Positions 37,720 through 63,045 of a stretch of DNA of 64,000 nucleotides are shown piece by piece. Positions within the stretch are counted from its first letter, which is position 1, and the number at the start of each line of letters is the position of its first letter. The DNA is from Hasllibacter sp. MH4015 (GTDB taxonomy: Bacteria; Pseudomonadota; Alphaproteobacteria; Rhodobacterales; Rhodobacteraceae): the NCBI RefSeq assembly GCF_020177575.1, contig NZ_JAHTBK010000001.1:682001-746000 (forward strand), written 5' to 3'. A program made the translations under genes and the position numbers. The notes beneath the pieces are model-generated. The model searched no databases, had not been told where the DNA came from, and worked only from the letters and a program-made list of their open reading frames with translations.

Positions 37720-37908
37720 TCAGCCGTTCTGAGCCGCCTCCAGGGCGGCGCGCAGGATGTCCCGGTCGCCGACATGGTTGGCGAGGATCAGGATGAGCCG
37801 CGCGTTCAGCGCGTCGGATTGATCCTTGGTCAGGCCTTGATGCGTAGCGAGCAACTCATCGTAGAAGCCGTCGGGATCGGGGATGTTGGGATCGGTGTTG
37901 AGAATCAT
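37720..37908 (-). CDS. DUF2783 domain protein
   Basis: A 62-residue soluble protein: NIPDPDGFYDELLATHQGL near the N-terminus, then an amphipathic helical stretch including ALNARLILILANHVGD. It matches the small DUF2783 family typically encoded right after FAD-dependent aromatic hydroxylases; its start overlaps the monooxygenase stop as ATGA. Likely a partner or stability factor of that enzyme; mechanism unknown. Confidence 0.85.
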   Translation of the reverse strand: MILNTDPNIPDPDGFYDELLATHQGLTKDQSDALNARLILILANHVGDRDILRAALEAAQNG

Positions 37909-39509
37909 GGCTGGCTCGTGGCTTTGGCAAGGGCGGCTTGGATCGCGGCGGCATCGGCGGAGGGCCAGCGCGCCGCGACGTGCTGGTCGGGCCGGATGAG
38001 GTAGAGCGCGCGGGGCGCGTCGCCCAGGTAACGCGCGCGGAGGGCATCGGTCAGGTCCGCACCGCTCAGGGTAAGCGTGCCGAAGGGCAGCGCGGTGGCG
38101 ATGTCGGGCGCATCCATATCGAGCGCGAGAAGCGTGAAGCGCCCCGGCAGGCGGTCGAGCAGGTAGCCTTCCACGAGCGGCGCGTCGGGGCAGGGCGCGC
38201 CTGGGCGGGTGCGCGCGGGGCCGTCCGGCAATCCGTCAGGCGTGTTGAGCGGCAGGTCATCATAGGTGCAGGGCACGGAGAGGCGGCCGGAATTGACCAT
38301 GGGTCGCGCGAAGGGATGGTCGCGCGCGAGCGTCAGCACCGCGTTGCGGAAGATCTTCGACATCTCGGATTTCGGCGTCAGGAAGTCCGTGGCGCGGGTG
38401 GAGTTCAGGATGTTTTCGTCCGCCCCGTGGGCGCGCTCGGCGTCGTAGGTGTCGAGCAGGGTGTCGGGGGCGAGGCCTTTGAGGACCAGATCCAGTTTCC
38501 ACGCGAGGTTGTCGGCGTCCTGAATGCCGGAATTCGCCCCCCGCGCGCCGAAGGGAGAGACCTGGTGCGCGGCGTCGCCGGCGAACATCACGCGGCCATG
38601 GCGGAAGTGGTCCATCCGGCGGCATTGGAACGTGTAGATGGAGGTCCAGACCAGCTCGTATTCCGTGCCGTCGGGCAGGAATTCGTCGATGCGGTGACGG
38701 ATTTTCGCAGGGTCGAGTTCCGCTTCGCGGTCGATGTCCCAGCCAAGCTGGAAGTCGATGCGCCAGACATCGTCGGGCTGCTTGTGCAGGAGCGCCGATT
38801 GCGGGGCTTCGGCCAGCGGCGGCTCGAACCAGAACCAGCGTTCGGTGGGGAAATCGGCTGTCATGCGGACATCGGCGATGAGGAAGTTATCCTCGAAGAC
38901 GCGGCCATCGAAGCTCAACCCCATCATCTGCCGCGTGGGCGAGCGGGCCCCGTCGCACGCGATGACGTAATCGGCGGTCAGTTGATAGGGACCGTCCGGC
39001 GTGTCGATGTCGAGCGTGACGTGATTGCCCGACTGGGTCAGGCCGGTCACGACATTGCGGCCCCGGATCTCGATCGGTTGACCGGCCGCCTCCGCCCGGC
39101 GGAGCGCGTCGATCAGGAACTTCTCGAAATAGGGTTGCTGGAGGTTGATGAAGGCGGGATTCTTGTGGCCGTCTTCGGGCAGGAGGTTGAAATTGAAGAC
39201 CTCCTGCGGGCCATGGAACACCCGGCCCACGTTCCACACGACCCCCTTGTCGACCATGTCGCGACCCGCGCCGAGGCGGTCGGCGATTTCCAGCGTGCGT
39301 TTGGCGAAGCAGATCGCGCGGGAACCCTGGCCCACGCCGTCGTGGTCATCAAGGATCAGGGCAGGCGTGCCTTTCTGCGCCAGGTCGAGGCCGGTCGCCA
39401 CGCCAATGGGGCCGCCGCCGATGATTACGACCGGGTGGTGGCCGGCGCGCGCGGTGACGGGGTCATAGGGGTAGAGTTCGTGGGCGAGGGCATAGGTTGC
39501 GCCGACCAT
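37905..39509 (-). CDS. FAD-dependent aromatic monooxygenase (MhpA/PheA-type)
   Basis: A 534-residue class A flavin hydroxylase. It has the dinucleotide motif VVIIGGGPIGVATGLDLA near residue 22, the DG motif YVIACDGARSPTR and the GD motif MFAGDAAHQVSPFGARGANSG, plus a C-terminal thioredoxin-like domain. The ATG at 39509 has GGAGG 7 nt upstream. It probably hydroxylates a phenolic acid with NAD(P)H and O2. Its location near hmgA suggests it may make homogentisate-pathway substrates, e.g. from a hydroxyphenylacetate; this is inferred. Confidence 0.88.
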   Translation of the reverse strand: MVGATYALAHELYPYDPVTARAGHHPVVIIGGGPIGVATGLDLAQKGTPALILDDHDGVGQGSRAICFAKRTLEIADRLGAGRDMVDKGVVWNVGRVFHGPQEVFNFNLLPEDGHKNPAFINLQQPYFEKFLIDALRRAEAAGQPIEIRGRNVVTGLTQSGNHVTLDIDTPDGPYQLTADYVIACDGARSPTRQMMGLSFDGRVFEDNFLIADVRMTADFPTERWFWFEPPLAEAPQSALLHKQPDDVWRIDFQLGWDIDREAELDPAKIRHRIDEFLPDGTEYELVWTSIYTFQCRRMDHFRHGRVMFAGDAAHQVSPFGARGANSGIQDADNLAWKLDLVLKGLAPDTLLDTYDAERAHGADENILNSTRATDFLTPKSEMSKIFRNAVLTLARDHPFARPMVNSGRLSVPCTYDDLPLNTPDGLPDGPARTRPGAPCPDAPLVEGYLLDRLPGRFTLLALDMDAPDIATALPFGTLTLSGADLTDALRARYLGDAPRALYLIRPDQHVAARWPSADAAAIQAALAKATSQP

Positions 39510-39601
39510 GTCAGGACCTCCGACAATGTTGCGAATGGGAACCGGGGCCGGGATATGCGCGTTTCCCGGAAGAAGACGCAACCGACCCAACGAGGTATTC
39601 G

Positions 39602-40240
39602 ATGTCTGATGCAACCTTTGATGCGCGCTCCGGCGCGCCCGAGCCGGTGGACCCGGTCGTCGCCCGCGCGGAGGCGACGGACGATGACGCGCAAGGATCA
39701 GCCGACCGTCCCAACCTGAACTGGAAATGGATGCTGTTCGCCGGGATCGTGTACCTGATCGGCGGCTTCGTGGCCTTCCTGAACCCGTTCGTCGCGTCGC
39801 TCGTGGCCAATGGCCTGTTCGCGGCCGCGTTCCTGGTCGGCGGTGCCATCGCGATGTGGCTGGCGTTCAAGAACGAGGACGGGACCACGGGCGGGCGGCT
39901 TCTGGGGGGCCTTGGCGGATTGCTTGCCGTGATCTTCGCCGTGGCGTTGTGGGCCAATCCGCTGGCGGGGCTGCTGTCGCTGACGCTGACTGTTGCGGCA
40001 TTCCTGCTTGTGATGGGCGTCGTGCGGATCTGGATCGGCGTGCGGATGCGGGAGCGTGAAGGCTGGGGCTGGATCGTGGCGTCGGGCGTGCTGACGGCCG
40101 TCCTGGGCGTGATGATCTTCGCGACCCTGCCCGCATCCTCCCTCACCATCCTGGGGTTGTTCCTGGGCGTGGAGCTGACATTCGCCGGGGTCGCCCATGT
40201 GGCGACGGCCTGGGCTGCGCGCAAGGGCGAAACCGCCTGA
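39602..40240 (+). CDS. HdeD family membrane protein (DUF308)
   Basis: A 212-residue membrane protein. A hydrophilic acidic N-terminus of about 40 residues is followed by six hydrophobic segments arranged as DUF308 pairs: WMLFAGIVYLIGGFVAFLNP, LFAAAFLVGGAIAMWLAF, LLAVIFAVALWANPLAGL and others. HdeD proteins are linked to acid stress in enterobacteria, but here the role is unknown. Divergent from the flavin hydroxylase gene; ATG at 39602 has GAGG upstream. Confidence 0.88.
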   Translation: MSDATFDARSGAPEPVDPVVARAEATDDDAQGSADRPNLNWKWMLFAGIVYLIGGFVAFLNPFVASLVANGLFAAAFLVGGAIAMWLAFKNEDGTTGGRLLGGLGGLLAVIFAVALWANPLAGLLSLTLTVAAFLLVMGVVRIWIGVRMREREGWGWIVASGVLTAVLGVMIFATLPASSLTILGLFLGVELTFAGVAHVATAWAARKGETA

Positions 40241-52426: not shown

Positions 52427-53740
52427 ATGATGAGCCAGGAGATGAACGACCAGATCACGCGGGTCGGGCCGGGGGCGCCTGCGGGCAAGGTCCTGCGCCA
52501 CTATTGGCAACCCGCCGCGCTGTCCGATGAGTTGATCGGCGCGCGACCCGTGGTGCCGGTCAAGTTGATGGGGGAGGATCTTGTCCTCTTCCGTGACGAG
52601 GGCGGCACGCTTGGCCTGATCGGACGGCATTGCCCCCATCGGGGCGCCGACCTTGCCTATGGGCGGCTCGAGGATAACGGGCTGCGCTGCCCGTTCCACG
52701 GTTGGCATTTCGATTGCACCGGCCAATGTGTCGAACAACCCGGCGAGCCTGAGGGCAGCCGGATGCACGAGCAGATCAAGGCGGTCAGTTATCCCGTTCA
52801 GGAGAAGAACGGGATCATCTGGGCCTATATGGGGGAAGGCAATCCGCCGCCGTTCGCCGATTTCGACTGTTTCCGTGCGCCCGATACCCACGTCTTCGCT
52901 TTCAAGGGCCTGTGGGAATGCAACTGGCTGCAAGCGATGGAGGTCGGCATCGACCCGGCCCATGCGAGCTTCCTGCACCGGTTCTTGCAGGATGAGGACC
53001 CGGCGGACAGTTACGGCAAACAGTTCCGCGATAAGGCCGGGAACACCGAATTCCCGATGACGAAACTGCTGCGCGAGTACCCGCGTCCCGAGATCAGCGT
53101 GGATGAGACGGAGTACGGGCTGAAGCTGACCGCTTTGCGCCATCTCGATGATGGCCGCACCCATGTGCGGGTGACGAACCAGATTTTTCCGCAAGCCATC
53201 TGCATCCCGATGAGCCGGGAGATGACGATCACCCAGTGGCACGTGCCGGTCGATGACGAGACCTGTTACTGGTACTCGATGTTCACCAGCTTCAACGCGC
53301 CCGTGGACAAGGTGAAGATGCGTGAGCAGCGGTTGGCAGAGCATCGGCTGCCGGATTACGCGCCCCTGAAGAACGCGCGGAACAATTACGGCTATGATGC
53401 CGAGGAACAGGGGAAGATGACCTATACCGGCATGGGGCTGGACATCAACGTCCATGACCAATGGGCGGTGGAAAGCATGGGGCGGATACAGGACCGCCGG
53501 TTCGAGCATCTGGGCAAGACGGATGTGGGCATCATCAAGTATCGGCGGATGCTGCGCGCCGCAATCGCTGCGGTCGAGGCGGGCGATGCCGCAGGCCTAA
53601 AGATGCAGAACGGCGGGACGTCTGGCATTAAGGGGCCGCTTTCGAACGACGCCATCGCGCCCGATGACGATTGGAAGGCGGCCTCCGTTCAGGCGGATCT
53701 TGAGCGTCGGGGCCAATGCCCGTGGGATGCAAGCGTTTGA
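52427..53740 (+). CDS. Rieske non-heme iron oxygenase, alpha subunit (phthalate dioxygenase-like)
   Basis: A 437-residue aromatic-ring oxygenase. The Rieske [2Fe-2S] site is CPHRGADLAYG followed by CPFHGWHFD (about residues 73-98). The mononuclear iron site is in DPAHASFLHRFL. Architecture matches the phthalate 4,5-dioxygenase/phenoxybenzoate group, which uses a separate reductase; none is encoded nearby. GGAGG lies 8 nt before the ATG at 52427; an ATG at 52376 would add 17 residues. Overlaps the GS-like gene, so the two act in one pathway. Confidence 0.9.
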   Translation: MMSQEMNDQITRVGPGAPAGKVLRHYWQPAALSDELIGARPVVPVKLMGEDLVLFRDEGGTLGLIGRHCPHRGADLAYGRLEDNGLRCPFHGWHFDCTGQCVEQPGEPEGSRMHEQIKAVSYPVQEKNGIIWAYMGEGNPPPFADFDCFRAPDTHVFAFKGLWECNWLQAMEVGIDPAHASFLHRFLQDEDPADSYGKQFRDKAGNTEFPMTKLLREYPRPEISVDETEYGLKLTALRHLDDGRTHVRVTNQIFPQAICIPMSREMTITQWHVPVDDETCYWYSMFTSFNAPVDKVKMREQRLAEHRLPDYAPLKNARNNYGYDAEEQGKMTYTGMGLDINVHDQWAVESMGRIQDRRFEHLGKTDVGIIKYRRMLRAAIAAVEAGDAAGLKMQNGGTSGIKGPLSNDAIAPDDDWKAASVQADLERRGQCPWDASV

Positions 53741-55137
53741 CGACAGAAGATATTCTTCGGCAGGTGGAGAAGGACGGGATCGAGACGATCCGCGTGGTCT
53801 TCACCGATCCCCATGGGGTGTTGCGGGGCAAGACGGTTACGGCTTCGGCTCTGCCGGGCGTGCTGCGCGATGGGCTGCGGGTGCCGTCGACACTGCTGTT
53901 GAAAGACCTGTCGCATCGCACGGCGTTTCCGGTTTGGGCGGGCGAGGGCGCGCCGATGCAGGGGGCGTCGGATGTGATGCTTTGGCCTGATCCGGCGACA
54001 TTTCGAAGGCTCCCTTGGTCGCCGCATTCGGCTTTGATCCATTGTGATGTGTCCACCATGTTAGGTGTGCCCGTCGCATTCTCGTCGCGCGAAGTTCTGC
54101 GCCGCGCTGAAGGGGCGCTCGTAGACGTTGGAGGCATGTCGCCTGAGGCAATGCGATCCGTACCTCGCGACGGCAAGGCGCACCTGAATTGGGGCGCAAC
54201 GCCGAAGGTGGGCGTAGAAATCGAGTTTCAGGTCTTCCGCGTACTCGACCCGAGCCTCTCGCCCGACCAATCCAAGATGCCCGGCCAACCGCCGCAGGTG
54301 GAGAATACGACGCAAGGCTACCAGTATCTGACCGAGACGCGATACGCGGAAGTGGAGCCGATGCTCGACCGCCTGCGCCGCGCTGCGGAGGAGATGGGGA
54401 TCGACGTGCGGTCGGTCGAGGTGGAGATGGGGCCGTCGCAGTACGAGGTGACGTTTGCGCCAGGGTCGCCGATGGACGTGGCGGAGCAGGCGGTGAATTT
54501 CCGCATGCTTGCCAAGGAATTGAGCCATCGACACGGGATGCTGGCCAGCTTCATGCCGAAACCCGCGCTGCCCAATGCAGTGGCGAACGGGTGGCACATC
54601 CACCAGAGCATCGGAGGGTTCAAACCCGAATCCGCCCGCGCGATGCATTGGATTGCAGGCCTGCTGGAACACGCACCAGCATGTGCGCTTCTGACCAATC
54701 CGACGGTGAACAGCTACAAGCGCTTCACACCTTACCAGCTTGCCCCGACCCGTATCGGATGGGCGCGGGACAATCGCGGGGCGATGGTGCGCGCTTTGCT
54801 GGATGACACGCCCGCCAGCCGCGTGGAAAACCGTCTGCCGGACAGCGCGGCGAACCCCTATTTCGCTTTGGCGGCCCAGTTGATCTCGGGGCGCGCGGGC
54901 TTGAAGGCGGCACAGGCCCCGCCGCCTGAAATGACCGATCCTTATGGCGGCGATGCGCCTGTCTTGCCGGCGAGCCTGGGGGCGGCGATCGAGGCGTTCG
55001 CAGCCTCCGACACGCTGCGCGACGCGCTGACGCCGGAGGTGCACGATTGGCTCGTCACGCTCAAGCGCCACGAATGGAACCGCTACCTTGCCCATATCTC
55101 GGATTGGGAACAGGCGGAGTATTTCACCGCGCTTTGA
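53716..55137 (+). CDS. Glutamine synthetase-like ligase (gamma-glutamylamide synthetase type)
   Basis: A 473-residue GS-superfamily enzyme. The beta-Grasp N-domain has IETIRVVFTDPHGVLRGKT; the catalytic domain has VGVEIEFQVF (metal Glu), NGWHIHQSIGG (ATP/His site), NPTVNSYKRF and RVENRLPDSAANPYFALAA. It is divergent from housekeeping GlnA and fits enzymes that gamma-glutamylate amines, such as those for anilines or alkylamines. It overlaps the Rieske gene by 25 nt from ATG 53716; a TTG at 53737 would give a 4-nt TTGA overlap and is plausible. Confidence 0.88.
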   Translation: MPVGCKRLTTEDILRQVEKDGIETIRVVFTDPHGVLRGKTVTASALPGVLRDGLRVPSTLLLKDLSHRTAFPVWAGEGAPMQGASDVMLWPDPATFRRLPWSPHSALIHCDVSTMLGVPVAFSSREVLRRAEGALVDVGGMSPEAMRSVPRDGKAHLNWGATPKVGVEIEFQVFRVLDPSLSPDQSKMPGQPPQVENTTQGYQYLTETRYAEVEPMLDRLRRAAEEMGIDVRSVEVEMGPSQYEVTFAPGSPMDVAEQAVNFRMLAKELSHRHGMLASFMPKPALPNAVANGWHIHQSIGGFKPESARAMHWIAGLLEHAPACALLTNPTVNSYKRFTPYQLAPTRIGWARDNRGAMVRALLDDTPASRVENRLPDSAANPYFALAAQLISGRAGLKAAQAPPPEMTDPYGGDAPVLPASLGAAIEAFAASDTLRDALTPEVHDWLVTLKRHEWNRYLAHISDWEQAEYFTAL

Positions 55138-55157
55138 TATACTCGTATCCGATATCA
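55135..55157. promoter_or_regulatory. LysR-type box TGATAT-N11-ATATCA
   Basis: Perfect 6-bp arms around 11 nt, the T-N11-A form typical of LysR regulators. It overlaps the stop codon of the GS-like gene and lies 75 bp before the dioxygenase gene. The LysR protein at 58918-59853 is the natural candidate. Confidence 0.55.
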
Positions 55158-55204
55158 GCTTAGAAAATCCGCGCTTGCGGTTATACCAGACGCGGTCATG
55201 CTGA

Positions 55205-56863
<1,659 letters not shown>

Positions 56864-56908
56864 GGCTCAGGCCCGGGTGGCACGCTTGCGACCCGGGCTA
56901 ACACCCTG

Positions 56909-57457
56909 ATGCTACTCAAAATTTCAAATCTGTGGGCGCGGGTCGAGCTGGCCGCCGCCGCCGTTCTGGCGGTTGGCGTCACGCTGCTGATCTTGCTGAA
57001 TGTCGTGACGCGCACGGCGGGTGCACCGATCTATTGGGTGGATGAGGCGGCGATCTACACGATGGTCTGGATGACCTTTCTGGGGGCGTCCGCCGCGATC
57101 CAGATGCGGCAACAGGTGGCGATCACGATCCTGACCGACGCGTTGCCGGAAGGCGCGCGGCGCGTGGCGGGCAAGCTGGTCGATGTGGCGGTTTTCGTCT
57201 TTGCCTGCGCGATGGTCTGGTTCTGCTGGCGCTGGTTCAATCCCTGGGCGCTGGCGAAGGCGGGTTGGGACCTGATGGCGTTCCAGGGGTCCACTTTCAA
57301 CTTCATTTATGCGGAGCCGACGAGCACATTGGGCGTGCCGAAATGGGTGATCTGGCTGGTGATGCCCCTGTTTTCGGCGGGCGTCTTTCTGCATGCATTG
57401 GCGCATCTGGTGAGTTTCTCGCCGCCCGAGACCCGTGGGCCGGAGGTCGCGACGTGA
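56909..57457 (+). CDS. dctQ: TRAP transporter small permease DctQ-type
   Basis: A 182-residue membrane protein with four hydrophobic segments: LAAAAVLAVGVTLLILLNVV, WVDEAAIYTMVWMTFLGASA, VFVFACAMVWFCWRWF and WVIWLVMPLFSAGVFLHAL. The WVDE near the second helix is typical of DctQ. Begins 45 nt after dctP. Confidence 0.92.
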   Translation: MLLKISNLWARVELAAAAVLAVGVTLLILLNVVTRTAGAPIYWVDEAAIYTMVWMTFLGASAAIQMRQQVAITILTDALPEGARRVAGKLVDVAVFVFACAMVWFCWRWFNPWALAKAGWDLMAFQGSTFNFIYAEPTSTLGVPKWVIWLVMPLFSAGVFLHALAHLVSFSPPETRGPEVAT

Positions 57458-57647
57458 GATACGGTCCCCGGTCACACGGCGCGGAATCAAGGCGAAGCCG
57501 CCGCGCATTGCTGGACCGTCCCCCGGTCCGGCGATTTGGCTGGCCTTGGCACTTCGTTTGTTTTGGGGAAAGGCTTGGCAACCATAAAGTGCCTGAGCTC
57601 AGTCGTTTGATCGCCGCATCACGGCCCGCCGATGCACGGCTTCCGCT
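57458..57647. other. 190-bp intra-operon gap between dctQ and dctM
   Basis: TRAP small and large permease genes usually abut or overlap, so this space is odd. It holds a hairpin GGACCG-N5-CGGTCC near 57509-57525 without a T-run. No credible gene is seen. It could tune dctM expression or be a remnant. Confidence 0.4.
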
Positions 57648-58910
57648 ATGACTCCAGCCCTGTTCTTCGCCAAGCTCCTGCTCGCCGTGCCGGTCGCCAT
57701 CACGCTCGCCCTCACCGCGATGTGGTATATTTGGGAGAGTGACAACACGATCCTCTACGACAGCTTCGCGCAGCGGATGTTTTCGGGGATCGAGGCCTAT
57801 GGCTTGCTGGCAATTCCGCTTTTCATGCTGACCGGCGAGTTGATGAACGAAGGCGGCATGACCCGCCGACTTATCAACGCGGCGCGCGTTTTCGTGGGCG
57901 GATTTCGCGGCGGCCTTGCCTATATCAACCTTCTGGCGAACATGTTCATGGCGGCCATCGTAGGGTCCGCCGCCGCGCAGATCGCGGTAATGTCGCGCGC
58001 CATGGTCCCCGCGATGGAGGACGAAGGCTATGACCGGGGCTTCGCCGCCGCCACGACCGCCGCCGGCGGGTTGCTGGCCCCCGTCATCCCGCCCTCGATG
58101 CTGTTCGTCATTTACGGCGTTCTCGCGCAGATCCCCATCGGCGACATGTTCCTGGCGGGCATCATTCCGGGGCTGATCCTGTCGGTCTGTTTCGCAATCG
58201 TGATCGCGCTGATCGGGTTGAAGCAGCAATTCCCGAAGGGGGAGTGGCTGTCGTCGGAGGCCGCGCGGAAGGCATTGCTGTACGCGCTGCCCGCGATGCT
58301 GATCCCGGCGGCGATCATCGGGGGGATCATTGGCGGGGTTGCCACGCCGACGGAGTCCGCCGCCGTCGCGTCCGTTGTCGCGTTCCTGCTGGGATGGCTG
58401 CTGTACCGGGAATTGAAGCCCGAAAAGCTGTTCGAGATGTTCAAGCGCACGGCGCTCAACGCCTCTCTCATCATCTTCATGATCGCCGCCGCCAATGTCT
58501 TCGGCTGGGTCATCATTTACGAGGCGCTGCCGCAGCGGCTGGCGGAATTCATCACGACAATCACGGCCAATCCGTTCGTGTTCCTGCTGATCGTCAATAT
58601 CGTGCTGCTGTTCGTGGGCATGTTGATCGACGGGATCGCGGCGATCATCCTCGTGACGCCGATCCTGCTGCCCATCGCGATCGAAAGCTACGGGATCAGC
58701 CCCTATCAATTCGGCGTCGTGATCTCGCTCAACCTCGTTCTGGGCCTTCTGACGCCGCCCGTGGGTGTGGGCCTCTATATCGCCAGCGCGATGAGCGAGA
58801 CGCCGACGGGACGTATCCTGAGGGCGCTGTGGCCGTTCCTGCTGGCGGTGGCGGCGGTGCTGATCCTGCTCAGCTACGTGCCGGAATTGTCGACCGTCCT
58901 GATCCGATAG
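57648..58910 (+). CDS. dctM: TRAP transporter large permease DctM-type
   Basis: A 420-residue permease with about 12 hydrophobic segments. Family features are AYGLLAIPLFMLTGELMNEGG, VGGFRGGLAYINLLANMFMA, GSAAAQIAVMSR, PPSMLFVIYGVL, and late LTPPVGVGLYIASAM. Forms the sodium-driven channel with DctQ. Convergent with the LysR gene. Confidence 0.94.
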   Translation: MTPALFFAKLLLAVPVAITLALTAMWYIWESDNTILYDSFAQRMFSGIEAYGLLAIPLFMLTGELMNEGGMTRRLINAARVFVGGFRGGLAYINLLANMFMAAIVGSAAAQIAVMSRAMVPAMEDEGYDRGFAAATTAAGGLLAPVIPPSMLFVIYGVLAQIPIGDMFLAGIIPGLILSVCFAIVIALIGLKQQFPKGEWLSSEAARKALLYALPAMLIPAAIIGGIIGGVATPTESAAVASVVAFLLGWLLYRELKPEKLFEMFKRTALNASLIIFMIAAANVFGWVIIYEALPQRLAEFITTITANPFVFLLIVNIVLLFVGMLIDGIAAIILVTPILLPIAIESYGISPYQFGVVISLNLVLGLLTPPVGVGLYIASAMSETPTGRILRALWPFLLAVAAVLILLSYVPELSTVLIR

Positions 58911-58917
58911 GTGCGCG

Positions 58918-59853
58918 TCATGCCGCGGCCTCGTCCACCAGCGCCTGAAGAAAAACCTTTGCCGCCGGGGACAGCTGATCCGCGCCACGATGGGTTGCGC
59001 CGATGGGGCCGGAGCCGAAGGGCAATTCGAAATCCAGCGGCACCAGCATCGCCGTGCCGATGTCCAGCAAGACGCCCTGACGCGGGGCCAGCCCGATCAG
59101 CTTGCCTTGGCCCAGAAGGGCGCGGTTCGTCAGGTAGTTGACGCTCTCGACGATGACGGGGGGCTGGTATTGATCGTGCTCCACAAATGCCTCGTCGATC
59201 TGGCGGCGGAGCGTGGTCTCCGAAGGCGGGAGAATCCAGCCGAAGGGTCGCAGGTCATCGAAGCTGAGCCCGGCGCGTTGGGCCAAGGGGTGGGCGCGTC
59301 CGACCAGAAGGTGAATTTTCTCCTCCCCCAAGGCGAGTTGGTGCAGGTCGCGGCGGTGTCGATGGGTGGGCAGGCGGCCCACGACCATGTCGATCTCTCC
59401 GGTGCGCAGGCGCGGCATGAGGATCTCGTTCGTGCCCTCCACCACCTTGATCGTCACGTTCGGACGCTCCGCCAGGACACGCCCGATGGCGTGGGGGACA
59501 AGGCGCGCGGACCCGGCGACAAGCGTGCCGATCACCACACGCCCGGTGGCGCCGTCGGTGAGGTCCTTCATCTCCTGCGCCGCATTGCCCAATTGCGCGA
59601 AGATCAGCTGCGCATGGCGGATCAGCGCCCGTCCATGGGCCGTGGGAATCGCCCCGCGATTGGTGCGATCGAAAAGGCGGACATCGAAATCGGCCTCCAC
59701 ATCCTTGATCATCTTGGTGGCGGCGGGTTGCGAGATGTTGAGCTCCTGCGCCGCGTGAAGGATCGCCCGGTGCTTGCCCACCGCGATCAGCAGGCGAAGC
59801 TGGGTGAGTTTCAGGCGGTTGACGGCCCGGTCGAGGGATACGGGGCGCGCCAT
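58918..59853 (-). CDS. LysR family transcriptional regulator
   Basis: A 311-residue LTTR. HTH region LTQLRLLIAVGKHRAILHAA with NISQPAATKMIKDVEADFDV (PAATK motif of the GbpR/CbbR-like group), effector domain from about residue 95. It is divergent from the molybdenum hydroxylase gene across an 18-bp palindrome and convergent with dctM, so it probably regulates the cluster 52427-63045. Confidence 0.93.
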   Translation of the reverse strand: MARPVSLDRAVNRLKLTQLRLLIAVGKHRAILHAAQELNISQPAATKMIKDVEADFDVRLFDRTNRGAIPTAHGRALIRHAQLIFAQLGNAAQEMKDLTDGATGRVVIGTLVAGSARLVPHAIGRVLAERPNVTIKVVEGTNEILMPRLRTGEIDMVVGRLPTHRHRRDLHQLALGEEKIHLLVGRAHPLAQRAGLSFDDLRPFGWILPPSETTLRRQIDEAFVEHDQYQPPVIVESVNYLTNRALLGQGKLIGLAPRQGVLLDIGTAMLVPLDFELPFGSGPIGATHRGADQLSPAAKVFLQALVDEAAA

Positions 59854-59906
59854 CAGGGCTTGGCCGTTGCGCTCTCAGACATATGCGAACGTTAAGCTCA
59901 AAGCCG

Positions 59907-59924
59907 ATTGATATCCAGATCAAT
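59907..59924. promoter_or_regulatory. Palindrome ATTGAT-N6-ATCAAT in LysR/molybdenum hydroxylase gap
   Basis: Perfect 6-bp arms, centred in the 151-bp divergent promoter region and 54 bp from the LysR start. Probable LysR operator. It resembles an FNR box, but the spacer is six instead of four bases. Confidence 0.6.
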
Positions 59925-60004
59925 TATACCAACGGCGTCTTTTGCTATTTTATCTCACCCCGCCGAAATGGTTGTCTGCACGGCGGAGGGCGAGGGACAG
60001 TGAC

Positions 60005-62095
60005 ATGATCGGGCAATCCCATCCGGACCGACGCGCGGCGGCGCGCTTGCGTGGTGCGGGGTGTTTCGTGGCGGATGTGGCGCTCGACGCGCCGCTTCAC
60101 CTCGCGTTCCTGCGCGCGCCGGTCGGTGCCGGTCAATTGGCCACGCTCGACATCGCCGGGGCGCTGGAGGTTCCGGGCGTGGTCGCGATCCATACCGGGG
60201 ACGATGTGGCCCATCTGGGTAAGCTGAGCGTCAATCCCGTGCTGCCGATCCTGCGTGAGGCGCCCTACCCGATCCTCGCCCGTGGCCGCGTCCTGCATCT
60301 GGGGCAGCCGATTGCGGCCGTCCTGGCCGAAACCGCCCATGCCGCCCAGGACGGGGTGGAGGCGTTGTGGCCGGACATCGCCGAGGACGGTGAGGCCGAA
60401 GATGCCACGGTGGCGGAGCGGACCTGGCGTACCGGCGATTGCGTGGCGGAATTCGACCGCGCGGACCACGTGGTGGAGGTGCATGTTCAGCATCCCCGCC
60501 TCGCACCGTCCCCGATGGAGCCGCGGGCCATCGCGGTTGCGTGGGGGGAGGAGGGGCTGACGATCTGGCACTCCACCCAGACCCCGCATCGCAGCCGGTC
60601 GGAACTGGCGCGGATCATCGGGCTCGACCCCGCGCGCTTGCGGGTGATCGCGCCCGATGTGGGCGGTGCGTTCGGGATGAAAGCCTCGCTCTATCCCGAG
60701 GAGGTCTTTGCGGTCTGGGCGGCCTTGCACCATCGCCAAGCGGTGCGGTGGTGCGCCAACCGGGGGGAGGATTTACTATCGGCCACCCACGGGCGCGGCA
60801 TCCGGTCTATCGGTCGGCTGGCGGTCGACAAGAACGGCATGTTCCTGGCGTTGCAGGCCGAAATTCGTGCTCCGGTCGGGCCGTGGTTGCCGAATTCCGC
60901 GCTTGTGCCGGGTTGGAACGCGGCGCGTATTCTGCCCGGCGGCTACGACGTCCCGACGCTCGACATAAGCGTTGACGTTCGCCCGGACGGCCACGGCCCG
61001 GTCGGCATCTACCGCGGGGCCGGACGCCCGGAGGCTGCGTGCCTGATGGAGCGGTTGGCGGACGCGGCGGCGCGGAAAGTGGGCCTCGACCCGCTGACGA
61101 TCCGGCGGCGCAACGTCCACGCGTCCGGCGCGCTGCCCTTGCGGAACGCCACGGGGAATTATCTCGATAGCGGCGATTACCCCGCCGCCCTTGAGGCCGC
61201 GTCGGAGGCGGCGGATTACCCCGCGTTGCAGGTGCGCCGGGCAGAGGCGCGGGCGGACGGAAAGCTGTCGGGCCTCGGCCTGGCCTTCTACCTGGAGCCG
61301 TCGGGCGAGGGGTTCGAGACGGCGCGCGTCACGTGGCGGGCCGACGGTAGCGTGGAGGTGGCCAGTGGTTCGTCCAGCCAGGGCCACGGACGCGAAACCG
61401 CGTATGCCCAGATCGCGGCGGAGGTGCTGGACCTGCCATTGGATGGCATCACGGTGCGGCAGGGGGATACCGAAACCTGCCCTGCTGGGATCGGAGCCGT
61501 CGCGTCCCGCGGCACGGCCATCGGCGGCAGCGCCGTGTTCACCGCCTGTGAACGACTGCGGGCGCGGCGGCTCAAGGGTGAAACGCTGCCATTGCGCGAG
61601 GATGCCCATTACGAGAACGCGGGGCAGGCCTGGGGTTACGGCGTTTATGTCGTCGCGGTCGAGGTCGACCGGGAGACCGGGGCGGTCGAGATCACCCATG
61701 CCACCTGCGTCGACGATGCCGGGCGGCTCGTGAACCCGGCCTTTGCCGAGGGGCAGATCCGGGGCGGCTTCGCGCAGGGATTGGGCGAGGCGTTGATGGA
61801 AGAGGTCGTGTTCGATGCCGACGGCCAGTTGCTGACCGGTTCCCTCATGGATTACGCCCTGCCGCGCGCGACGGATATGCCGGATGTGGCAATCCACAGC
61901 AGCGAACATCCCACGGCGCTGAATGCCCTTGGGGCCAAAGGCGTGGGGGAGGCCGGGACGATCGGCGCGCCCGTGGCGATCCTCAACGCGGTCCTTGATG
62001 CGCTGTCGCCCCTGGGCGTGCGGGATCTGGACATGCCGCTGACACCTTGCAAGATCTGGTCCGCCATCGCGGCGGCGGAAAGGGAGACCCCATGA
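60005..62095 (+). CDS. Molybdenum hydroxylase large subunit (xanthine oxidase/CoxL family), orphan
   Basis: A 696-residue molybdopterin-binding subunit. Motifs: GGAFGMKASLYPEE (Moco region), YRGAGRPEAACLMERL, SGSSSQGHGRETAYAQIAAE and the catalytic Glu in GAKGVGEAGTIGAP. It lacks the AYxCSFR loop of CO dehydrogenase. It is about 80-100 residues shorter than usual; the stretch after FTACERLRARRLKG is very brief. FAD and [2Fe-2S] subunits are not encoded next to it. Likely hydroxylates an N-heterocycle or aldehyde. Start at 60005 has GAGGG upstream; overlaps the next gene by 4 nt. Confidence 0.88.
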   Translation: MIGQSHPDRRAAARLRGAGCFVADVALDAPLHLAFLRAPVGAGQLATLDIAGALEVPGVVAIHTGDDVAHLGKLSVNPVLPILREAPYPILARGRVLHLGQPIAAVLAETAHAAQDGVEALWPDIAEDGEAEDATVAERTWRTGDCVAEFDRADHVVEVHVQHPRLAPSPMEPRAIAVAWGEEGLTIWHSTQTPHRSRSELARIIGLDPARLRVIAPDVGGAFGMKASLYPEEVFAVWAALHHRQAVRWCANRGEDLLSATHGRGIRSIGRLAVDKNGMFLALQAEIRAPVGPWLPNSALVPGWNAARILPGGYDVPTLDISVDVRPDGHGPVGIYRGAGRPEAACLMERLADAAARKVGLDPLTIRRRNVHASGALPLRNATGNYLDSGDYPAALEAASEAADYPALQVRRAEARADGKLSGLGLAFYLEPSGEGFETARVTWRADGSVEVASGSSSQGHGRETAYAQIAAEVLDLPLDGITVRQGDTETCPAGIGAVASRGTAIGGSAVFTACERLRARRLKGETLPLREDAHYENAGQAWGYGVYVVAVEVDRETGAVEITHATCVDDAGRLVNPAFAEGQIRGGFAQGLGEALMEEVVFDADGQLLTGSLMDYALPRATDMPDVAIHSSEHPTALNALGAKGVGEAGTIGAPVAILNAVLDALSPLGVRDLDMPLTPCKIWSAIAAAERETP

Positions 62096-63045
62096 ACTAC
62101 AATCGCCTGGACGCCAAGGATTACGCGCGGGAGCATTTTCGCGGGATCTGGGCCGCCTGCTTGAATCCGTGGCGCACGGACGGCGCCTTCGACGAGGCCG
62201 GGTTCCGGTCCAACATCCGGCACTGGATCGACGATCTGTCGATTGCCGGGTTCTTCATCGCGGGCAAGCAGGGGGAATTCTTCTCCATGTCGCTGGAGGA
62301 GCGGAAGCGGAATATCGAGGTCGCGGTGGAGGAATGTGACGGGCGTGCGGGCACCATCTTCTCCGCGTCCGATCAGAATTTCGAAACGGTCGTGGAACTG
62401 GCGCAACACGCGCAGGATTGCGGGGCGGATTACGTGGTGGTTCACGCGCCGGTTCTGCACTTCGTGACGGATCAGGACGAGGTTCTGTTCAACTATTACA
62501 AGGCGATCTGCGAGCGGGTGGATATCGGCATCGCGATGTGGAGCCACCCCGACAGCGGCTACCTGATGTCCCCGCAACTTTGCGCGCGGATCGCGGAATT
62601 GCCCAATATCGTGGCGATCAAGTATTCCGTGCCGCGCCCCCTCTACGCCGAACTGACCCGGCTAGCAGGCGACAAGATCCACGTCTCCACCGCGTCCGAG
62701 GCTGAATGGCTGGACAATATCGAGGAGTTGGGGTGGATGCTCTACCTCTGCTCTTCCCCGCCGTACCAGATCCAGACCACGGCCGATCAACGGATGAACG
62801 ATTATACGAAGCTGGCCTTCGAGGGGCGTTTCGACGAGGCGCGGCTGATCCGTGACAGCCTGAATCCGGTGCGCGAGGCGTTCAAACGCACCAAACCCGC
62901 GGACAAGCCGCAGGCCCACGGGAAATACTGGCAGGAGTTGCTTGGACAGGTCGGCGGGCCGGTTCGCGCGCCGATGCTGAACCTGACAGATGCGGAGAAG
63001 GCCGCGACCCGCGAGGCGTTCGAGGGCTGTGGCCTGAAGGTTTAG
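62092..63045 (+). CDS. Dihydrodipicolinate synthase family lyase, atypical
   Basis: A 317-residue TIM-barrel protein. The GxxGE motif is FIAGKQGEFFSMSLEER and the Schiff-base Lys177 is in IVAIKYSVP. The canonical TPYY with catalytic Tyr is replaced by HAPVLHF, so it is unlikely to be DapA. Start overlaps the molybdenum hydroxylase stop as ATGA. Family members include pyruvate lyases and hydratase-aldolases, so it may cleave a late pathway intermediate. Confidence 0.87.
   Translation: MNYNRLDAKDYAREHFRGIWAACLNPWRTDGAFDEAGFRSNIRHWIDDLSIAGFFIAGKQGEFFSMSLEERKRNIEVAVEECDGRAGTIFSASDQNFETVVELAQHAQDCGADYVVVHAPVLHFVTDQDEVLFNYYKAICERVDIGIAMWSHPDSGYLMSPQLCARIAELPNIVAIKYSVPRPLYAELTRLAGDKIHVSTASEAEWLDNIEELGWMLYLCSSPPYQIQTTADQRMNDYTKLAFEGRFDEARLIRDSLNPVREAFKRTKPADKPQAHGKYWQELLGQVGGPVRAPMLNLTDAEKAATREAFEGCGLKV

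Follow-up and report, generated by a model that had tools for sequence, protein, structure and literature searches.

A gene set in Hasllibacter sp. MH4015 that probably degrades 3-hydroxyanthranilate without the usual decarboxylase

The window analyzed here is a stretch of 64,000 nucleotides (G000:C1:682001-746000) of the 3.7 Mb genome of Hasllibacter sp. MH4015 (G000). At 52427-63045 it carries, in this order, genes for a Rieske oxygenase, a glutamine synthetase-like (GS-like) ligase, 3-hydroxyanthranilate 3,4-dioxygenase (HAO), the TRAP importer DctP-DctQ-DctM, a LysR regulator on the reverse strand, a Mo-hydroxylase large subunit (MoL) and an atypical DapA-family lyase (DapAl). These genes fall into two modules, one running from HAO to DapAl (55232-63045) and the other comprising the Rieske-GS pair (52427-55137). 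We consider it fairly probable that the former encodes a catabolic pathway for 3-hydroxyanthranilate (3-HAA) that does not depend on 2-amino-3-carboxymuconate semialdehyde (ACMS) decarboxylase (ACMSD) and cleaves its substrate to malonate semialdehyde and iminoaspartate or oxaloacetate. With distinctly less confidence, we suggest that DapAl represents a new subfamily of Schiff-base lyases that splits the ring-cleavage product of 3-HAA into a C3 and a C4 unit, with a dedicated aspartate dehydrogenase (AspDH) salvaging the nitrogen.

HAO and DapAl belong to a recurrent gene set

The HAO gene (55232-55774, + strand) encodes a protein of the bacterial type with CxxC pairs that scores above the cut-offs of two NCBIfam models (NF009763, 271 bits; TIGR03037, 262 bits) and matches PDB entry 1YFU at 1.4e-71. 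It retains N26, R46, H50, E56, H94, R98, E109, C124, C127, C161 and C164, which we take to be the cupin metal ligands, two substrate arginines and the rubredoxin-like CxxC pairs. Judged by these matches, it is a genuine 3-hydroxyanthranilate 3,4-dioxygenase, as an earlier note on this DNA had also proposed.

We compared the neighborhoods of 14 loci from 13 genomes of the genus (13 main loci and a second one in genome G008) and of 80 named HAO loci (the top 80 among 305 confirmed places; the nearest come from Roseicyclus and from Rhodobacterales bacterium HKCCE4037, going by the record names). Four of these rows (L026-L029) lie on the same contigs as loci of the genus, so that the 94 rows represent 90 distinct loci. 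In 76 of these 90, DapAl is encoded in the same stretch as HAO, and the other 14 comprise three short contigs (L045, L063 and L067), one stretch that ends early (L017), the main locus of G008 (L019) and nine HAO-TRAP loci. Within the genus, the Rieske, GS-like, HAO and DctPQM genes are found together in all 13 genomes, and MoL and DapAl stand beside them in 11; the contig of G006 ends before this point, and G008 lacks the two genes there and has a second locus (L020) with DapAl, a second HAO, kynureninase and an aldehyde dehydrogenase. Such genus-wide conservation indicates that the arrangement is not due to chance. Neighbors of the genus cluster include LysR (8/13), AspDH (10/13) and an IclR gene (8/13), the latter two being absent from the window cluster. 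Between members of the genus, HAO proteins are 86-93% identical at the main locus and MoL proteins 65-72%. In one metagenome-assembled contig shared by L017 (3891-5200) and L028, the Rieske gene is split into two frames by either an assembly error or a genuine break.

The same association holds beyond the genus. We sampled the family with one genome from each of 198 genera. At thresholds of our own choosing, HAO (E<=1e-50) was detected in 20 of these genomes and DapAl (E<=1e-90) in exactly the same 20, without exception; the corresponding probability of 8e-28 assumes independent genomes and is overstated because the genomes are related. In three of them (G085, G043 and G050), HAO and DapAl lie on different contigs and DapAl is part of a LysR-AspDH-MoL-DapAl block. 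On the plasmid side, 47 records contain DapAl (E<=1e-60) and 77 contain HAO (E<=1e-5), and in the 40 HAO rows that we viewed the counts of both genes are equal by genus for Phaeobacter (23/23), Ensifer (10/10), Tritonibacter (3/3), Ruegeria (2/2) and Rhizobium (2/2), with plasmid HAO of Cupriavidus, Mycetohabitans and Streptomyces having no counterpart among the DapAl rows. HAO, DapAl, AspDH and either MoL or an aldehyde dehydrogenase form a unit of their own in Rhodobacterales, Stappiaceae and Rhizobiales. Of the 76 distinct loci that carry DapAl, 59 also encode AspDH, and the AspDH protein of L013 scores 331 bits with its NCBIfam model (cut-off 177).

This distribution also bears on the idea that the set serves de novo NAD synthesis from tryptophan, with HAO leading to quinolinate and AspDH supplying iminoaspartate. 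PLSDB indeed assigns the term NAD biosynthetic process to AspDH in the two plasmids that we looked at, but the importers, the aldehyde dehydrogenase or MoL and DapAl would have no role in such a route, and the genes are accessory, being found in 20 of 198 genera and also on plasmids. We therefore reject NAD synthesis as the main role and regard it as highly improbable.

Kynureninase accompanies the set at L020, L102, L104, Shinella L160 and Phaeobacter L159. At the second locus of G008, HAO is located between DapAl and kynureninase, while in Sinorhizobium L104 and Shinella L160 the genes run in the order kynureninase, aldehyde dehydrogenase, LysR, DapAl, HAO and AspDH, preceded by an ABC importer in L160. 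On one plasmid of Phaeobacter inhibens, ca. 13 kb hold HAO, aldehyde dehydrogenase, kynureninase, importers, LysR, AspDH and DapAl. Given a self-contained unit that is joined by kynureninase in some loci, its central compound is most likely 3-HAA.

MoL is exchanged for an NAD-aldehyde dehydrogenase

MoL (60005-62095, + strand; PF01315, PF02738 and PF20256) contains the motifs YRGAGR and GVGE and resembles quinoline 2-oxidoreductase and CoxL-type hydroxylases. The 90 distinct HAO loci divide into 41 with only MoL, 32 with only an NAD-aldehyde dehydrogenase, one with both (its aldehyde dehydrogenase being 35% identical), two at contig ends with neither and the 14 stretches without DapAl. When mapped onto a DapAl tree (75 sequences), the MoL label switches four times, of which at least two switches are forced by well-supported branches, and the aldehyde dehydrogenase label switches six times in a count that includes the two contig-end rows with neither gene. 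The changes of the MoL label indicate that the exchange has happened more than once, and the replacement of one gene by the other argues that MoL oxidizes an aldehyde rather than hydroxylating a ring.

The resemblance of MoL to ring hydroxylases would otherwise suit the breakdown of an N-heteroaromatic acid, e.g., quinolinate, to which ACMS closes spontaneously according to the available part of one source (PMC7842363). We find this very unlikely, since the aldehyde dehydrogenase that takes the place of MoL in 32 of the 90 distinct loci would not hydroxylate a pyridine ring and HAO requires an aminophenol.

DapAl resembles class I lyases, but its active site appears to be new

DapAl (62092-63045, + strand; PF00701) has an AlphaFold model with a pLDDT of 90.9 that shows the TIM barrel of the DapA fold and, among its best 50 matches, resembles dihydrodipicolinate synthase and N-acetylneuraminate lyase structures at 20-26% identity. 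In an alignment of 75 sequences, the Schiff-base lysine (Lys178; residues are counted from codon 62089, so that 1 has to be subtracted for numbering from Met), the motifs GKQGE, WSHPDSGY and CSSPPY and a tryptophan at the position of DapA Tyr133 are at least 99% conserved, with this lysine and tryptophan being invariant in 47. Read by eye against 6xgs and 3pb0, DapAl has Lys-Gln for Thr44-Thr45, Val-Leu for Tyr106-Tyr107, Trp for Tyr133 and Ser or a gap for Arg138 (positions in E. coli DapA numbering), which bears out the earlier observation that this lyase lacks the catalytic tyrosine of DapA. Of these residues, K60-Q61 and W151 are invariant.

DapAl therefore fits the DapA/N-acetylneuraminate lyase superfamily, which also includes the hydratase-aldolases NahE and PhdJ, by its TIM barrel and Schiff-base lysine but departs from it at the positions of Thr44, Tyr107, Tyr133 and Arg138 and by its invariant GKQGE and WSHPDSGY motifs. 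It keeps neither the Thr-Tyr-Tyr triad nor Arg138 and so does not qualify as dihydrodipicolinate synthase itself. Altogether, its features suggest a class I lyase whose active site is new.

A proposed route from 3-HAA to C3 and C4 products

The analysis itself establishes the gene content, the co-occurrence, the replacement of genes, the active-site residues and the lack of an ACMSD match in the window genome; what the importer takes up and every reaction beyond ring opening are inferred. The TRAP importer would take up 3-HAA or a related aromatic acid, and HAO would open the ring of 3-HAA to yield ACMS, the C6 aldehyde of which would be oxidized by MoL (or by the NAD-aldehyde dehydrogenase of relatives) to 2-amino-3-carboxymuconate. 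DapAl would then form a Schiff base at C2, and its hydration of C4 followed by retro-aldol cleavage between C3 and C4 would release malonate semialdehyde and iminoaspartate. Iminoaspartate would hydrolyze to oxaloacetate or, in relatives carrying AspDH at the cluster, be reduced to aspartate by this enzyme. The sequence of steps could also be reversed without altering the end products. A role of AspDH would fit the chemistry because ACMS contains the skeleton of aspartate, with carboxylates on C1 and C3 and the amine on C2.

Uptake of an aromatic acid is suggested by DctP (55880-56863, + strand; PF03480), which shares 65% identity with SPO1773 of Ruegeria pomeroyi (PDB 4paf) and has a predicted model at 0.8 Å rmsd to this structure. 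The SPO1773 entries 4paf, 4pai and 4pbh presumably carry benzoate-type ligands, and the ligand of DctP is probably an aromatic acid, too. The small and large permeases are encoded by dctQ (56909-57457, + strand; PF04290) and dctM (57648-58910, + strand; PF06808, with TIGR00786 above cut-off), followed by the divergent LysR gene (58918-59853, - strand; PF00126 and PF03466), relatives of which adjoin AspDH and DapAl in other genera. The TRAP importer is present in 46 of the 76 distinct DapAl-bearing HAO loci, and 21 have an ABC importer of the Liv type. Versions with the latter (L032, L047, L052 and similar) often end with an alpha/beta hydrolase; its closest NCBIfam model, hormone-sensitive lipase, scores below cut-off, and it could possibly be a formylkynurenine hydrolase.

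The absence of ACMSD was assessed with the help of three classical HAO loci, one each from Mycetohabitans, Cupriavidus and Streptomyces, that encode RidA, hydroxymuconic semialdehyde dehydrogenase and an ACMSD-like amidohydrolase. We used the amidohydrolase beside the Mycetohabitans HAO as query, taking it as ACMSD from its place and family, and it matched the two other classical loci at 75% and 53%. No match was obtained in any of the 94 neighborhoods or, at E<=1e-15, in the window genome and 16 others of the 20 HAO genomes (17/20). Across the 198 family genomes, 42 match at this threshold, the best at 36% identity. Strong matches to the RidA-type 2-aminomuconate deaminase near HAO were limited to the three classical controls, with none in the window and matches of 29-32% in 4 of the 94 loci (L073, L075, L090 and L092).

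These results make it worth considering that DapAl instead fills the place of the missing ACMSD directly, as a Schiff-base decarboxylase by which ACMS, a beta-imino acid, would lose its C3 carboxylate, after which MoL or the aldehyde dehydrogenase would give 2-aminomuconate and AspDH would act on this imino acid to yield 2-oxoadipate or oxalocrotonate. The best NCBIfam relative of DapAl, though far under its cut-off (2.6e-23), is KdgD, the 5-dehydro-4-deoxyglucarate dehydratase, which is a decarboxylating enzyme. But a RidA deaminase, decarboxylase, hydratase and pyruvate aldolase are all outside the conserved set, and the compact sets of L104 and L160 consist of five catalytic genes and an importer. 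Since such sets have no further catalytic genes, we favor the retro-aldol cleavage and see the decarboxylase as unlikely.

Several observations weigh against the retro-aldol pathway. The catalytic set of DapA is changed in DapAl, so that aldolase chemistry is not a given. No FeS small subunit adjoins MoL. The five Fer2_2 places of the genome lie away from it, and we recognized no free partner among these; at least two of them (L176 and L180) are flanked by a large open frame that resembles a large subunit of their own. Three small-subunit queries against the 94 loci and ten more gave matches only in L085 and L193, far from MoL. Furthermore, 17 of the 76 distinct DapAl loci show no AspDH in the stretch. 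The window cluster has none, and the only AspDH match of the window genome (48% identical) is found at 1,260,226 in another catabolic cluster. All 13 genomes of the genus do encode an AspDH of some kind (in two pieces in G006), and the three without AspDH at the cluster have a 45-49% identical relative elsewhere, in a common second catabolic cluster. Amidohydrolases related to the Mycetohabitans query, with 32-34% identity for the best match of each genome, occur in the HAO genomes G104 (2e-23), G151 (1e-23) and G174 (3e-44). Finally, no KMO was recognized in the window genome, albeit in a weak and incomplete search based on the unspecific PF01494. Nine of its PF01494 places were fetched and six of the proteins scanned against NCBIfam, with two passing UbiH-type cut-offs and the other four being closest to 3HB6H-, urate-hydroxylase- and unnamed hydroxylase-type models; no model named for KMO was among the best 25 for each.

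The earlier note had stated that no kynurenine genes are present, which is correct near the cluster but does not hold for the genome, as TDO and kynureninase are encoded adjacently at 1,244,726-1,246,659 and similarly, away from the cluster, in all 13 genomes of the genus. The refuting case that it named, a dioxygenase serving standard tryptophan breakdown with kyn genes elsewhere, is supported by these two genes but not by the lack of any detected ACMSD and of a recognized KMO, within the limits of the search for the latter.

A second catabolic region at G000:C1:1253500-1273400 (L173) encodes flavoprotein hydroxylases, AspDH, an aldehyde dehydrogenase, a TRAP importer, a sulfatase-like protein, a short-chain dehydrogenase/reductase and a Rieske protein, and most of its genes are also present in G001 and G003.

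The Rieske-GS pair is a separable module

The Rieske gene (52427-53740, + strand; PF00355 and PF19301) encodes an alpha subunit of the LigXa/phthalate-dioxygenase type with the Rieske motif CPH-CPFH and the metal motif DPAHASFLH; its best PDB matches are 9ina (2.3e-66) and, of the phthalate 4,5-dioxygenase type, 7fhr (8.2e-61). It shares 25 bp with the gene of the GS-like ligase (53716-55137, + strand; PF00120), confirming their proposed overlap. The best PDB match of the ligase is 8wwu, i.e., NpaA1 (1.2e-71), ahead of a glutamine synthetase at 7.1e-48. NpaA1 is described in the accessible part of its report as an arylamine gamma-glutamyl ligase that glutamylates naphthylamine and anilines (PMC11335346). 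From this kinship, the GS-like protein is probably an arylamine gamma-glutamyl ligase and the pair probably handles an arylamine.

Close relatives of the Rieske protein (E<=1e-120) are found in 22 of the 198 family genera, and a GS-like gene is located within ca. 5 kb in all 20 loci that were fetched (of 21 outside the window genome), with an IclR relative within 15 of these 20 stretches. Seven of the 22 genera have HAO at our threshold and 15 do not; in other words, the Rieske gene is present in 7 of 20 HAO genera versus 15 of 178 others (p 0.002). The Rieske-GS pair adjoins the HAO module throughout the genus and additionally in G074 (L150) and G151 (L158, same contig as L044).

The earlier note had combined all nine genes into a single pathway for an amino-aromatic or N-heteroaromatic acid. 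In a more specific version that we considered, an imported amino-aromatic acid would be glutamylated at its amine by the GS-like ligase and hydroxylated by the Rieske oxygenase, and the resulting 3-HAA would be passed on to HAO, e.g., starting from anthranilate formed by TDO and kynureninase. Besides the shared neighborhood, the overlap between Rieske and HAO genera and the kinship with NpaA1, this possibility gains from the presence of TDO and kynureninase in all 13 genomes, of which six including that of the window lack NF006101. We take the latter to be the 2-aminobenzoyl-CoA monooxygenase family; it is found in the other 7 of 13, and we discarded a 2-aminobenzoyl-CoA route because the window genome has no NF006101. 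A review, in its accessible part, calls the step from anthranilate to 3-HAA a non-specific hydroxylation and has the HAO product proceed to quinolinate (PMC10384668). Against a single pathway stand the many Rieske genera without HAO and the fact that aniline-type GS-Rieske systems expel the amine that 3-HAA retains. Moreover, no glutamine amidotransferase-like gene, Rieske small subunit or reductase is among the nine genes of 52427-63045, to which this search was confined. We thus hold a single pathway to be possible yet rather unlikely. The HAO set being a unit of its own elsewhere, the Rieske-GS pair is better seen as a second, separable arylamine module, which in this genus may supply the pathway with 3-HAA, and the boundary between 55774 and 55880 drawn in the earlier note was misplaced, as HAO goes with the genes to its right.

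Surroundings of the cluster

Domain and NCBIfam scans found every gene and family of the earlier note, including a carboxylate-type TRAP importer, LysR regulator and molybdenum hydroxylase. Pfam scans were run from upstream starts for the Rieske gene (52376) and MoL (59999); after refinement, MoL starts at 60005 and DapAl at 62092, and the two are joined by an ATGA overlap. The upstream neighbor is a molybdoenzyme gene on the reverse strand, which we take to be SoeA-like from its sequence. Downstream, a Peripla_BP_4 protein gene ends on the reverse strand, which in sister genomes, read by eye, appears as a LacI-type regulator. An FAD_binding_3 hydroxylase of ca. 570 aa is encoded at 37905-39614 of the window (- strand), and several sister genomes have a match to it at a distance of 11-14 kb from the cluster.

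Comparison with known systems and implications

Among the closest known systems, the HAO-ACMSD-RidA-hydroxymuconate pathway (2-nitrobenzoate/kynurenine type), known from beta-proteobacteria, actinomycetes and fungi, shares the cleavage of 3-HAA by HAO and, in some loci, an aldehyde dehydrogenase. Unlike it, the window set comes with no ACMSD match in the genome and includes no RidA deaminase or pyruvate aldolase; DapAl, along with AspDH in many relatives, is present instead, and MoL can stand for the aldehyde dehydrogenase. The fungal 3-HAA pathway does not match, because it also uses ACMSD as far as the available text shows (PMC7842363). The anthranilate pathway of Geobacillus thermodenitrificans NG80-2 likewise has 3-HAA as central compound with subsequent meta cleavage and features an FAD-dependent anthranilate hydroxylase, according to the available part of the source (PMC4539516). 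The aniline and 1-naphthylamine systems (AtdA1 and NpaA1) also have a GS-like ligase beside a Rieske oxygenase, though that of the window is a single alpha-type subunit of the phthalate/LigXa kind, and the scanned genes include neither an amidotransferase-like one nor any for a small subunit or reductase. Two further candidates were set aside: for homarine, no description of a hom operon was found in open-licence literature listings, and for the indole-3-acetic acid (iad) pathway, the accessible portion of the source mentions neither 3-hydroxyanthranil nor glutamine synthetase (PMC12633357).

By titles and the beginnings of abstracts in the open-licence literature, we found no description of HAO together with a DapA-family lyase or AspDH, so that, as anticipated in the earlier note, the set could not be matched to a described system. 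To our knowledge, the described 3-HAA routes run via ACMSD or end in quinolinate. 3-HAA and the kynurenines are widespread tryptophan metabolites. What stands out is that a marine bacterium with an importer and a compact set of enzymes appears to use a route without the usual decarboxylase and with an unusual aldolase-like enzyme. If the proposed pathway is true, its C3/C4 split would run the logic by which quinolinate is made from iminoaspartate in reverse and constitute a second general bacterial solution for 3-HAA that avoids ACMSD and the neurotoxic quinolinate. It would then change the annotation of HAO in alphaproteobacteria, from marine Rhodobacterales to soil Rhizobiales and their plasmids, and give a function to genes called 'dihydrodipicolinate synthase family' and 'aspartate dehydrogenase' whose names misfit their neighbors.

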